In this document: piece by piece, positions 17,516-21,723 of the stretch
How the letters are laid out: each line of letters begins with the position of its first letter
Numbering within the stretch: position 1 is the stretch's first letter
NCBI GenBank assembly: GCA_016218065.1
Contig: JACRFA010000011.1
Coordinates: 1-41,607, forward strand
Reading direction: 5' to 3'
Length of the DNA stretch: 41,607 nt
Source of the DNA: Ignavibacteriota bacterium
Lineage (GTDB): Bacteria > Bacteroidota > Ignavibacteria > UBA10030 > UBA6906
The notes under the pieces: generated by a model
Seen by the model: the letters and a program-made list of their open reading frames with translations, nothing else
The model's database searches: none
Told to the model about the DNA's origin: nothing
Translations under genes and position numbers: made by a program

Positions 17516-17776
17516 GATCCATTCCTTTTGCTAGTTGTTCCGTTCTGGTCAGAATGAGTGTGCAGCATAGAGGCACGGCTGATCGCGGGCAAATGGCGAC
17601 CCTGATATAGACGACCAAATGTCAAATGTGAAGCGTCTAAGATAGGAAGCGGCGCTTTCGATATTCGTAGGTGAAAAGCGTCAAGGCGTCACAAAACCGT
17701 GACCCCGCGAAGCGGGGCGCACACAACGCGCAACCGCTGCGCCCTTTGGCGGCTGGCACGTCCAAGTAACTGCGGT

Positions 17777-17843
17777 GGGAGTTTATGCGATTTCGTGTCT
17801 AACTGTTCTTGAGTTGGCGCGAAATTTTGTTCGCACCAAACCC
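17777..17843 (-). repeat. Diverged dispersed repeat, copy A
   Basis: This copy contains the core TTGGCGCG (17814-17821) followed by an ATTTTGTTCGCAC-like arm and preceded by a GGGAGTTT block. It aligns by eye with copies B, C and D further right. Orientation is given as minus because the copies translate to related short strings on that strand. No transposase or integrase accompanies it. Confidence 0.5.
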
Positions 17844-17946
17844 CGCCAACCATAGAGTTCTTCGAGGCGGGCAGGGCGTGCCAGCCGTAATGTTCTTGCG
17901 GCTTTGGGTTTGACTGCGCAGGTTGGCGCATCGGGAGGATTTCGAT

Positions 17947-18023
17947 AGGAGTTTTTGTGAATGGCGTGCGAACCTGTTCCATCAGGATTGGCGCGACATT
18001 CGTCAATACAAAACATGTGACCC
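17947..18023 (-). repeat. Diverged dispersed repeat, copy B
   Basis: Blocks in order: AGGAGTTTTTGTGAA, GGCGTGCGAAC, then TTGGCGCG (17988-17995), then an arm ending ACATGTGACCC. The first block is nearly identical to copy C (AGGAGTTTTTGTAAA). A CCCGCGAAGC hairpin follows directly, as a similar hairpin occurs within copy C. Confidence 0.55.
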
Positions 18024-18099
18024 GCGAAGCAGGGCGTATAACACGCGCAACCGCGTGAATTATCTTATGGTGGTATAGCAATACTGAACTACATCCATC

Positions 18100-18420
18100 C
18101 TACTTCCTTTGTCTGTCACTTGGAGTTGGGTTGGACACCTTGAATGTGATGATTCCGACCTCATCACTTATATCATAACCTGTCACCCGAATCGTGAATG
18201 TGCGCTCACCCAGCCTTTTGATCGAGAACTTGTAGATCAGAATTCCATTCTCCCATCGTTCGATATGTTTGAACTTCCGTTCCTTCGGCATCTCGTACTT
18301 GAGTGCTTCAGCGAGACCTTGCTGCGCGTTGGCAATGGCGCGAGGAACGCTGGCGAATGAGCTCGATGCAAATAGAATGAGAAGCGCAAGGATGGTGATT
18401 GTTCGGCATGATCTGATCAT
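18100..18420 (-). CDS. Small secreted hypothetical protein
   Basis: This is a 106-residue protein with a clear signal peptide (MIRSCRTITILALLILFASS, then SFASVPRA). The mature part has alternating charged and beta-prone segments (KFKHIERWENGILIYKFSIK, then ERTFTIRVTGYDISDEVGI) and is probably a small periplasmic or exported domain. I do not recognise the family. The open frame continues upstream to 19056, but only because that DNA lacks A on this strand and so cannot form stop codons. The signal peptide supports the ATG at 18420. No ribosome site is evident. Confidence 0.6.
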   Translation of the reverse strand: MIRSCRTITILALLILFASSSFASVPRAIANAQQGLAEALKYEMPKERKFKHIERWENGILIYKFSIKRLGERTFTIRVTGYDISDEVGIITFKVSNPTPSDRQRK

Positions 18421-18505
18421 TGCGTTGAAAAGCGCTTGTTGATTCCGTTTCGTCGGCGGAACTTTCTTCGCCGGCACCCACTGCGCCGCGATTTGGCCGG
18501 CGCTT

Positions 18506-19034
18506 GAAACAGGCACCCACGAGCCGCGACCAAGACGAGGCAGGCGCGCAGGCGAGAAGCCAACACAGAAGACAAAGACACGAACGCCGAGACGGGCAGC
18601 AACGCGGCACGCGAGAAGCGAACCGCGGGAACGGGGCGAAGCGAGGAAACACACGAGCGCAGACGACGGAGAAGCGGCGAGGAAACGCACAAGCGCAACA
18701 GAGCGTGCGGCAAGACGAACGCGAAGCGGAACACGAAGACCGCCACCGGCACACCAACGAACGGAAGCGCCGGCGCGAGCGGCAGAGAGAACGCCGGAGA
18801 CAGACGACACGGGACAAGCGCCAGCGCCACCGCGCCCGAACGCAGCGAAGATAGAGACACGACGCAGAACGCCGAGCGGAACGGAGGATAACACGAGAGC
18901 ATCGGCGCCGACAGAGCAGCCGACAGCGAGCGACGCGGACGACGCAAGCACGGAAGAAACAACAGAGGAAACGAGCGGCAACGCGGACACAGGGAGCGAC
19001 CGCGAACCACAGAAGCCAACACGAGAGAACGAAG
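18506..19034. other. Extreme T-depleted tract (4 T in 529 bp)
   Basis: On the plus strand this tract is built almost only of A, C and G. T occurs only at 18706, 18852, 18889 and 18902, with a 200-base stretch (18506-18705) completely free of T. It is not a tandem repeat: the order of A, C and G looks irregular. All stop codons need T on the plus strand and A on the minus strand, so every frame is open and the long frames here (up to 318 codons) mean nothing. Plus-strand translations are runs of R, Q, E, H and T; minus-strand translations are runs of S, V, L, R and C. No known element explains it. Confidence 0.8.
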
Positions 19035-19135
19035 TAAACATAGCGCACCTGAACAAAAAAAAGAAAACAACAACAGCGACAGCTAACAGTCTTCAGAGCT
19101 GCGAACGCAAGGGATTTTACCCTGATGGCGCGCAG

Positions 19136-19310
19136 CCCTTCGACCGTGCTTCGGCAGGCTCACGAAAGCTCAGGGCGCGCCCTTCGACAATGTGGTTCGA
19201 CTGTGCTCACCACAAGGGTTCGACCGTGCCTTCGGCAGTGCTTCGACAGGCTCACGAAAGCTCAGGGCGAGCCCTTCGACTTTGCTCAGGGCGAGCACGG
19301 AAGGGCGACA
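19136..19310. repeat. TTCGACAGGCTCA-type intergenic repeat cluster
   Basis: A 23-base sequence beginning CAGGCTCACGAAAGCTC occurs identically at 19155-19177 and 19247-19269. It is surrounded by variants of CCCTTCGAC and GCTCAGGGCGAGC in both orientations. Short intergenic repeats of this kind (TTCGACAAGCTCAG and relatives) recur in many unrelated bacteria. No coding role is likely. Confidence 0.7.
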
Positions 19311-19485
19311 GCCCCGCTCCGACGAGCCTAAGACTGCAAGCGGGGTAAACCCTTGCGGAGCATCTCGTGCAAATTTGGTTTTGGGCTGTTGTTGTTTTGA
19401 GTCAGAGTAGCAAAAGCGTCTTTCAATCATTTTCAACTCTTGGTTTGTTCTTTGATGGCGGTCGGCGCATCCAGAGGATATCGAG

Positions 19486-19595
19486 AGGAGTTTTTGTAAA
19501 CGACATGTTCCCGCGAAGCGGATTCTGGGAAGCGAACAATCTCTGTTCCCTCGGGATTAGCGCGCCATTTCGTTGTCACAAAAACTGTGACGACC
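19486..19595 (-). repeat. Diverged dispersed repeat, copy C
   Basis: Blocks: AGGAGTTTTTGTAAA, a CCCGCGAAGCGG hairpin (19510-19521), CTGTTCCCTCGGGATTAGCG, then an arm TTGTCACAAAAACTGTGAC. It matches copy B in block order but has the hairpin moved inside the unit. Confidence 0.5.
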
Positions 19596-19660
19596 GCGGC
19601 ATCGCGCTGGAAAATGCGGTGGCGAAGTTGTTGACTTTGTTTTTGATTGCGGCGGTTGGC

Positions 19661-19739
19661 GTGAGCTTTTGAAATGGCGTGACAACTTTGCCTTTCAGAG
19701 TTGGCGCGGCATTGATCAGCTTCAAAAGGCATGACAACC
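19661..19739 (-). repeat. Diverged dispersed repeat, copy D
   Basis: Blocks: GTGAGCTTTTGAAATGGCGT, then TTGGCGCG (19701-19708), then an arm ending AAAAGGCATGAC. This is the most diverged copy, but block order and spacing follow copies A and B. Confidence 0.45.
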
Positions 19740-19827: not shown

Positions 19828-20448
19828 TCAGAACGGTAAGTCGTCGTCCTTCTTCTCGGCTGCGGCGACCGGCTCCTTGTCGGGTTCGCTGGCTGGTTTC
19901 GCGGGTTTGCGCGGTGCTCGGCGCGAATGGTTCGTCGGTTCTTTCTTCGTCGTGATTGTCGTTCTAATCGTTCGCGCAAGAAAGAGTCCGACGGCAAGTG
20001 TCACTTCAGGAATGACGGATGGATCATCCAGATTCTTGCAGATCGATCGTGCATCTGAGAGCGCATTGCTAAGCAGATGCATTTCGTCGGCGGACTCGGT
20101 GAGTACGGTCAGTTGTTCATTCTGTTGTTCGGCCAACAAAGAGTTTGCTGGCGGTTGCGCCTTCCCTTCCTCGACAACAAGGTTGATGATGCTGTACGGC
20201 TCTCCGTTTTCCGGCGTAACGGATGTCTTGCCGAGCCGAATCTCCTGTCCGCCTTGAACGTTCTGTTTGCGGAACTGCTTTTCGAGTCGTTCGGTAACCT
20301 TGAGAAGCTTTTCTTTTCCTTCGTGCATGACCGTGTAGATAAAGTACTTTCCAAATTGTCCGTTGCGGAGGAGTCCGGTATTGTACTTCAGCGTGATGGT
20401 GACGGCTTCGCCGTCGGGGATTTGCAGGAAGTCGCGTTGAGTGTTCAT
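19828..20448 (-). CDS. SSB-like single-stranded DNA-binding protein
   Basis: This 206-residue protein begins MNTQRDFLQIPDGEAVTITL and has a beta-rich N-terminal half that could be an OB fold (GKYFIYTVMHEGKEKLLKV, later PYSIINLVVEEGK). A basic Pro/Lys/Ala-rich linker follows, and the protein ends in EKKDDDLPF. That acidic tip is the hallmark of bacterial SSB proteins (DDDIPF in E. coli) and recruits repair and replication proteins. The N-terminal domain is not obviously canonical SSB, so a phage- or plasmid-type SSB is likely. AAAAGGAG lies about 7 bases before the ATG, which fixes the start although the frame extends further upstream. The neighbouring recombination ATPase remnant supports a DNA recombination role. 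Confidence 0.65.
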   Translation of the reverse strand: MNTQRDFLQIPDGEAVTITLKYNTGLLRNGQFGKYFIYTVMHEGKEKLLKVTERLEKQFRKQNVQGGQEIRLGKTSVTPENGEPYSIINLVVEEGKAQPPANSLLAEQQNEQLTVLTESADEMHLLSNALSDARSICKNLDDPSVIPEVTLAVGLFLARTIRTTITTKKEPTNHSRRAPRKPAKPASEPDKEPVAAAEKKDDDLPF

Positions 20449-20748: not shown

Positions 20749-21606
20749 TCATGCTGCTTTCGTCTGGTTGAGCTGCGTACTGCGTTCCTGAATTGCCTTC
20801 TTGACCTGCTCGGCTTGTTCTGCGGTGATCTTCTTCGCATTCAAGCCTTTGCTCATGCTCTGCTCAATCGAGAAGAGTCTCTCGACTGTCTGCGCATGCT
20901 TCACGGCGAACAATATCGCCTCGGTTTCTTTCTCTCCGAGCTTATGGCCGTTGTCGTTGAAGAGCAGAGCCTGAGGTTGAGAAGATGACGGGTGACCGGA
21001 GACAGTCGATGATGCCATCGTTGATGGTTGTTTGTTGATTGTCGATGGTGCGCTTCCGTTGCGGTTCAGCCAGGAAGTGATCTGCGAACCGAGTTCTTCG
21101 TTTGGCTTGATGAGGACCTTTCCGTCGAACATGCTTGACCGATCCTTCGATGAAATGGCGTTGTGCCCAAGGTCCAGATCAAACACGATGTCGAATTCGT
21201 AATCCATCCCCTCACGCTGGATCGGCGCAAGCCCGACTTTCTTCGGGACGGCCTTCCCCTTGTCAGTTTGCTCTATTATATAGTCCATCTTCGAGCGCAT
21301 CGTCGCGATGATGTGAAGTTTTGAGCGGATCATCGCTTCGACAAATGCGTTGTGCTGGGGCGTGAGTTTCCGCCATGCGGTGAAGCTGTTCATGCCGCCA
21401 TCGGAAAGCCTTCCCTGCACATCAAGCAAACCGCCTTCACCTGCCCATGCATGCGTTATGCTGTCGAGTATCAGCACGTGATAGCCGGCCTGCTCTGCGG
21501 TCTTGATCGCCTCGATGTACTTCTCGATCTGAAACGGCGGTTCGATGTTGAGCATGTCGAAGTCGATGCGATCGGAATACAACACGCTGGAGTTGTTCTC
21601 GGTGTC
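20749..21606 (-). pseudogene. Sak4-like RecA-fold ATPase, 5'-truncated
   Basis: About 285 residues of a RecA-fold phage-type recombination ATPase remain. The surviving sequence starts at LDTENNSSVLYSDRIDF, which in this family follows directly after the Walker A loop. Walker B is HVLILDSITHAW, with later conserved KLHIIATMRSKMDY and GMDYEFDIVFDLD. The C-terminal part is a Ser/Thr/Pro-rich linker plus a charged helix. The reading frame meets a TGA just upstream (near 21607), and no P-loop is found before it. The protein therefore lacks its nucleotide-binding loop and should be inactive. The break coincides with the switch to an unrelated plus-strand operon, pointing to a recombination junction. 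Such ATPases pair with SSB in annealing modules, fitting the neighbouring gene. Confidence 0.65.
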
Positions 21607-21723
21607 TAATCACCTAATTGATTGCAATACGATTTTCGGTTACTTTGAGGTTAACATCATCTGCACACCGGCGGCACATACCACACATTGAAGTTGTCTG
21701 AATGGACTCCCTCGGAGAAAGGA

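Follow-up and report, generated by a model that had tools for sequence, protein, structure and literature searches.

The question raised by this locus is how a stretch of several hundred bases can be almost devoid of one base on one strand. The window, i.e., the whole stretch of DNA analyzed, comprises 41,607 nucleotides of a contig from an Ignavibacteriota bacterium. Between positions 18506 and 19034, its plus strand contains 184 G, 182 A, 159 C and 4 T, the latter at 18706, 18852, 18889 and 18902, with T-free runs of 200, 145, 132 and 36 nt; elsewhere, T-free runs in the window reach at most 37 nt. Against a binomial background of 24.5% T, taken from the window outside the tract, the log10 probability of at most four T in 529 bases is about −57, and chance is thus rejected. 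This recount agrees with an earlier, sequence-only reading, which had reported four T and a 200-nt run. Its statements that the tract is not a tandem repeat and that the flanking DNA is of normal composition were also borne out, by a repeat search that detected no tandem repeat and by base counts of the flanks, respectively. No second copy of the tract was found in the 5.17-Mb genome, where the sole other T-free run of at least 101 nt is a tandem repeat on contig 150. These searches of tract and genome reject a tandem or dispersed repeat as the explanation.

The sequence-only reading had also proposed a scan of related genomes for base-poor tracts. In 150 such genomes, long T-free runs are mostly tandem repeats or genes for proteins rich in Lys, Glu or Gln. 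One other genome of the same order, referred to as G022, carries a non-repetitive tract of like style, with 8 A in 680 nt, which can be aligned with that in the window. The G022 tract lies directly upstream of a homolog of a small secreted-type protein, and in the window the same protein follows the tract. The features at the tract itself are as follows.

18506–19034, no strand assigned: tract free of T on the plus strand, that is, free of A on the minus strand, apart from the four exceptions; defined by base counts.
18469–19041, minus strand: A-poor dprA-like coding region; supported by homology to G022, dN/dS of about 0.2, an AlphaFold2 model, Foldseek matches to DprA, and PF02481 matches in 10 of 13 relatives.
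18901–18903, minus strand: codon for Asp47 in the G-A-D motif; no other A-containing codon is retained in all members compared.

Comparison of the window with G022 indicates what the tract encodes. The differences fall on the first, second and third codon positions of the minus-strand frame in the numbers 45, 33 and 104, and the predicted proteins are 72% identical over 192 residues (dN 0.23, dS 1.19). Since the differences thus occur mostly at every third base and the protein is preserved, we assign a minus-strand gene to 19041–18469. Its ATG is at 19041–19039, it encodes 191 residues as far as the homology extends, and it contains 12 A in 573 nt (2.1%). The same clustering at third positions of the minus-strand frame rejects the antisense alternative, in which the T-free plus strand is the coding one. 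The tract is thus the template strand of a minus-strand gene that is conserved and evolves under purifying selection. Assigned by their position in the ORF, the four exceptional T residues belong to the codons of Asp47 (GAT, 18902), Leu51 (TTA, 18889), Ile64 (ATC, 18852) and Ala112 (GCA, 18706). The sequence-only reading was therefore correctly framed in remarking that a transcript of the minus strand would be devoid of A, the minus strand being the sense strand. Its remark that drift, coding and simple sequence are insufficient is also right: the exclusion is real, specific to one strand and no simple sequence, and neither drift nor protein sequence alone accounts for it. The tract is, however, not gene-free. 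Nor is it an assembly artefact, which is ruled out by the A-poor homologs in G022 and on finished plasmids of isolates (Nitrosococcus oceani ATCC 19707, Synechocystis PCC 6803).

To place the protein, a structural model was computed with AlphaFold2 from the family alignment (pLDDT 90.6). The predicted fold is of the Rossmann, DprA type; a Foldseek search of the PDB gave 13 matches at E ≤ 0.001, each of them DprA or ShosA, with TM of about 0.6 (HpDprA: E 2e-5, TMq 0.61) and ShosA (8zva) in second place. A profile search of PDB sequences also ranked DprA first, albeit weakly, including a weak match to SpDprA. PF02481 (DNA_processg_A) weakly matches 10 of 13 family members, with a best E of 2.5e-5, but not the window protein itself, which was also not recognized by models from NCBIfam, PADLOC or PHROG. 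Gly12, Ser13, Arg14 and Asp47 are invariant, so that the G-S/T-R and G-x-D motifs of DprA are present, and the order GSR, GCxxGAD, RLAxRT/S, SRGSLLA parallels GSR, GxxxGID, RNRII, SGSLITA in DprA. It forms a new and divergent branch of DprA-like proteins, unnamed in the family libraries searched. It has the predicted fold and motif order of DprA (PF02481, an SMF-type Rossmann domain of the SLOG superfamily), but consists of the Rossmann domain alone (about 190 residues), has almost no Lys or Asn, is borne by mobile elements, and is encoded nearly without A. ShosA, its second-best structural match, is a DprA-like protein carried in accessory DNA. Unlike in ShosTA, no phosphoribosyltransferase toxin was seen next to the gene in the annotated plasmids; in addition, the gene is A-poor, and the fold of its own partner, ORF1 (see below), is not recognizable.

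Homologous tracts at other loci, which the sequence-only reading had suggested seeking, were found as A-poor relatives in several bacterial phyla: Ignavibacteria, Gammaproteobacteria, Cyanobacteria, Acidobacteria and one Rubrobacter. Plasmid-borne relatives occur in Nitrosococcus, Methylocaldum, Methylobacter and Methylomagnum, and, among cyanobacteria, in Nostoc, Synechococcus, Synechocystis (pSYSX of PCC 6803) and Microcystis. Further relatives are on 14 contigs, including ones from Ignavibacteria, gammaproteobacteria, Acidobacteria and Rubrobacter. Sampling of the family relied on one scan of species genomes and on translated searches with masking, and its actual range is therefore wider; a few of its start codons are uncertain. 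In nearly all relatives the A content of the gene is 0.4–8%, versus 16–32% in the hosts. For example, one Acidobacterium has 2 A in a 709-nt zone whose surroundings contain 26.5% A, Methylomagnum has 6 A in 1134 nt, and Synechocystis PCC 6803 has 16 A in 716 nt. In 12 complete plasmids (about 1.03 Mb), all T-free runs of at least 77 nt lie in this locus with two exceptions, namely one run on W04 and one beside a degenerate second copy on a Microcystis plasmid. A search for a viral origin gave no matches in phage records or viral contigs, a weak negative because low-complexity masking in tblastn covers much of the protein.

In the protein tree, A-poor members lie on either side of the midpoint root, and the two members in which avoidance is relaxed, Methylomonas (21% A) and G206 (12% A), branch from within A-poor groups. 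As read from the tree topology alone, A-poverty is probably ancestral to the family and was lost in these two lineages. The Methylomonas protein is still constrained (dN 0.34 and saturated dS 2.75 against the L095 sequence, i.e., dN/dS of about 0.12), although its gene has 21% A, and avoidance of A and protein function are therefore separable. The G206 copy (contig C35, locus L108) has a normal 20% A at fourfold-degenerate sites, with 85% of its residues of the A-free-codon type, as expected after avoidance is lost.

Is the A-poverty a property of the protein or of the nucleotide sequence? In the non-relaxed members, 89–99% of residues belong to the ten amino acids that have A-free codons. At fourfold-degenerate sites, A makes up 0–8% in the A-poor genes versus 11–33% in neighboring ORFs of the same loci. 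As sequences diverge, third positions exchange C, G and T with little restriction but seldom acquire A: of the differences between the two Acidobacteria sequences, 92 of 94 involve C, G and T only, as do 165 of the 182 between the window and G022. Just one A-containing codon is invariant, namely that of Asp47 (GAT or GAC, in 12 of 12 non-relaxed sequences), an amino acid without an A-free codon. The DprA fold as such does not require A-poverty, since the housekeeping dprA of the window genome has 23.7% A. Depletion also ends with the gene: in the first 100 nt downstream of the stop codon, A is 23–44% at 17 of 18 loci (7% in L088). Substitution rates look ordinary (dS 0.25–1.2, dN/dS 0.1–0.27).

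The same exclusion extends to a second gene and to its ribosome-binding site. In gammaproteobacteria the dprA-like gene has a coupled upstream partner, ORF1, whose stop codon usually overlaps the dprA-like start region, and which is just as A-poor, with no A at all in 387 nt in L088 and none in 342 nt in L097. Its ribosome-binding site reads GGGGGU rather than GGAGGU, so that A is replaced by G while pairing is retained via G-U wobble; in Acidobacteria the Shine-Dalgarno (SD) sequence is GGCGG. In L093, L097 and L113, terminators immediately past the stop codon are almost A-free as well. ORF1 matches no Pfam family, and its AlphaFold2 model (pLDDT 71) has no PDB match at E ≤ 0.001. A polypyrimidine leader (about GGCGTTTTCTCTCTTTTTTCCGGTTTTTCTCTCTTTTGGGG) is conserved ahead of ORF1 in five gammaproteobacterial loci (L085, L087, L088, L095, L098). 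Because A is missing at silent, coding and SD positions alike, the sequence comparisons indicate that selection acts on nucleotides and not on the protein alone, and that it is directed against A in the sense transcript or against T in its template.

The genes around the tract provide a context for this selection. The relevant features of the window are the following.

18103–18420, minus strand: small protein of 106 aa with a signal-like N-terminus (MIRSCRTITILALL...) and normal composition; 43% identity to L080 5904–6299.
19137–19280, plus strand: direct repeats (TTCGAC...GCTCAGGGCG; repeat family D1) between module genes, outside the coding unit.
19831–20448, minus strand: unnamed module gene of normal composition; 41% identity to L080 3278–3994.
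20752–21609, minus strand: AAA_24 (Sak4-like) ATPase without approximately its first 43 residues; PF13479 at 1.4e-13, matching the AAA_24 protein of L095 from residue 44.

The dprA-like frame of the window continues stop-free into the downstream small protein, as an open frame of 313 aa from 19041 to 18100; in G022 the small protein is a separate gene. The gene at 19831–20448, which has no significant Pfam match, is common to the three Ignavibacteria loci (window, G022 and a fen MAG). Recurrent neighbors across the family are Gp157 (in 11 loci), the Sak4-like AAA_24 protein and DUF932, and in cyanobacterial plasmids ArdA, SSB and ERF/Rad52 proteins. The gene order in the window is that of G022, but without Gp157; given this gap and a Sak4-like gene that starts 43 residues short, the window copy is a truncated element in which the dprA-like gene is still open. 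We conclude that the gene belongs to a mobile element. Its neighbors are genes of the kinds that act on or shield single-stranded DNA as it enters a cell, and as a set they are similar to an establishment or leading-region module. ArdA, SSB and recombination genes are likewise found in plasmid leading-region anti-defense islands (PMC11541004), in a paper whose main text makes no mention of DprA or Gp157. Around the module, at 17660–18060 and 19137–19720, lie diverged repeats (TTCGAC...GCTCAGGGCG; GGCGCATC..AGGAGTTTTTGT) in a largely gene-poor stretch.

Taken together, we consider it an even bet that the gene pair has been selected to exclude one base at coding, silent and ribosome-binding positions alike, so that it can be expressed under conditions in which RNA containing A, or a template containing T, would be at a disadvantage. 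Our preferred explanation for this disadvantage, which we put forward tentatively and rate somewhat below an even chance, is selection on the transcript, i.e., escape from A-dependent RNA cleavage. A in the dprA-like mRNA would be harmful when the protein is needed, at a cost borne by the transcript. The agents, which are a guess, could be A-dependent RNA-cleaving toxins or defense RNases of the MazF, RelE/HigB, ToxN or HEPN types; these would destroy ordinary messages, and an A-free mRNA would let the pair that handles single-stranded DNA be made in a hostile cell. This proposal draws on the resemblance of the neighbors (ArdA, SSB, ERF/Rad52 or Sak4 annealase, Gp157) to an establishment or leading-region module. 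Against it, the remaining genes of the module contain A at normal levels, no toxin of a fitting kind accompanies the locus in every host, the plasmids carrying the gene are typed as non-mobilizable, and we know of no single RNase that punishes every A. Several characterized HigB-type toxins do favor A-containing codons, but some toxins of the RelE family also cleave A-free ones, e.g., GCG and CUG (PMC9098466).

The main rival is a cause at the level of DNA, because sequence cannot distinguish an A-free RNA from a T-free template, and the data reported above fit both. In this alternative, which we regard as rather unlikely, it is T that is kept out of the template strand, which would thereby be free of T-directed lesions or modifications, promoter-like sites, palindromic restriction sites containing A/T, and head-to-head type III sites, to the benefit of the first gene that needs to be expressed from incoming single-stranded DNA. 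ArdA and SSB among the neighbors would suit this, as would the mild under-representation of GC-only palindromes (GGCC at 0.61 and GCGC at 0.79 of expectation). Neighboring genes on the same strand, however, are not T-free on their templates, and the replacement of A in the SD sequence and the end of the depletion at the stop codon suit a cause at the level of mRNA at least as well. Removal of restriction sites would take few changes, rather than the loss of nearly every A, and restriction-site avoidance as the sole cause is therefore rejected. A more doubtful idea is self-immunity, in which the products of the A-free pair would attack adenine in RNA or single-stranded DNA, so that the pair's own message must lack the target. 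The SLOG superfamily, to which the fold belongs, includes LOG, an enzyme that strips adenine from nucleotides, and the exclusion is confined to the two ORFs in every host, whatever the composition of that host. The best structural matches, though, are to DprA and not to that kind of enzyme, and the constrained Methylomonas protein can evidently coexist with an A-containing message.

That sense-strand A is steadily removed by A-directed mutagenesis, either DGR-like or associated with transcription, seems to us highly improbable. Diversity-generating retroelements (DGRs) are adenine-specific mutators (PMC3240598), and the other three bases are near equal in the window tract. Nevertheless, no reverse transcriptase was annotated or seen in the flanks of the loci inspected, nor a template repeat, and no repeat of the tract exists in the window genome; substitution rates look normal, and depletion does not go beyond the stop codon. 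Alleles from Nitrosococcus are either near-identical or mosaic, and hypermutation is rejected, since the alignment of N. oceani with N. watsonii reflects mosaic recombination with no targeted change. Two causes offered by the sequence-only reading, namely a strand-specific mutational process and copying by a specialized polymerase, are not supported, on the same grounds. A third, selection for an unstructured or R-loop-forming transcript, found no support either: RNA folding z-scores do not depart consistently from those of shuffled sequences on either strand, the GC skew of −0.07 in the window compares with +0.03 to +0.29 in relatives, and with no match to the tract in Rfam a non-coding RNA, structured or unstructured, is rejected. 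Least credible of all is a constraint on the protein, whereby a need for F, L, S, C, W, P, R, A, V and G yields the A-poverty. The skewed amino-acid usage of the non-relaxed members is as this would predict, but the fourfold-site test contradicts it, synonymous third-position A being nearly absent too; moreover, the SD region is affected, the relaxed relatives L096 and L108 accept K, N, I and T, and the housekeeping DprA is ordinary in composition.

To our knowledge, a conserved message that leaves out one base has no precedent, and the open-licence literature yielded nothing relevant on A-free genes. The nearest idea is that of ACA-less mRNAs, which resist MazF for want of its recognition sequence. 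There too, a message escapes an mRNA interferase through an absent target, but in the present case a whole base is excluded rather than a triplet, and this exclusion occurs in nature and is conserved between phyla. The purine bias attributed to Rho avoidance (PMC13323073) is likewise an example of RNA-level selection that shapes the composition of a gene strand, but in the opposite direction; the A-poor sense strand is pyrimidine-rich and lacks one purine. If the pair has indeed been selected to exclude one base, a previously undescribed base-exclusion strategy of mobile elements would be at hand. In any case, the exclusion points to an unnamed adenine-specific hazard that faces mobile DNA or its messages, and a family predicted to be well folded, in which nearly all A-containing codons except that of the motif Asp have been abandoned, provides a natural experiment in reduced amino-acid alphabets. 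Since Synechocystis PCC 6803 and Synechococcus elongatus carry copies, these ideas can be tested in laboratory strains.

Several individual copies merit separate description. pSYSX (L110) carries two A-poor gene copies, at 23.1–23.8 kb (gene SGL_RS01470) and 77.9–78.5 kb, whose listed 78-nt runs are identical and lie at the same 54.7-kb offset. Between the N. oceani and N. watsonii plasmids (L089 and L090), ORF1 and the 3′ parts of the dprA-like gene are near-identical and the 5′ segments divergent, in a recombination-like mosaic. Truncated or degenerate copies, namely L118 2175–2515 (G039, without the 5′ half) and L115 1715–2070 (the second Microcystis copy), are still T- or A-poor. In a Rubrobacter MAG (L103 3227–4138), a short A-poor dprA-like stretch is in frame with an ArsR-like sequence, as a fusion or a misassembly. 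Plasmid pn2 of Nostoc sp. UHCC 0926 has a second A-poor ORF (L109 11440–11875; 17 T in 436 nt on the plus strand) on the strand opposite to the dprA-like gene, which suggests that A-poverty tracks the sense strand of certain genes and not a strand of the replicon. Finally, such genes are easily overlooked or flipped in annotation: in Nostoc plasmids the ORF annotated is the antisense one, and Methylocaldum and Microcystis have no gene listed (L109, L112, L114, L085, L113), since the tracts are open in nearly all six frames and gene callers miss or invert the genes.
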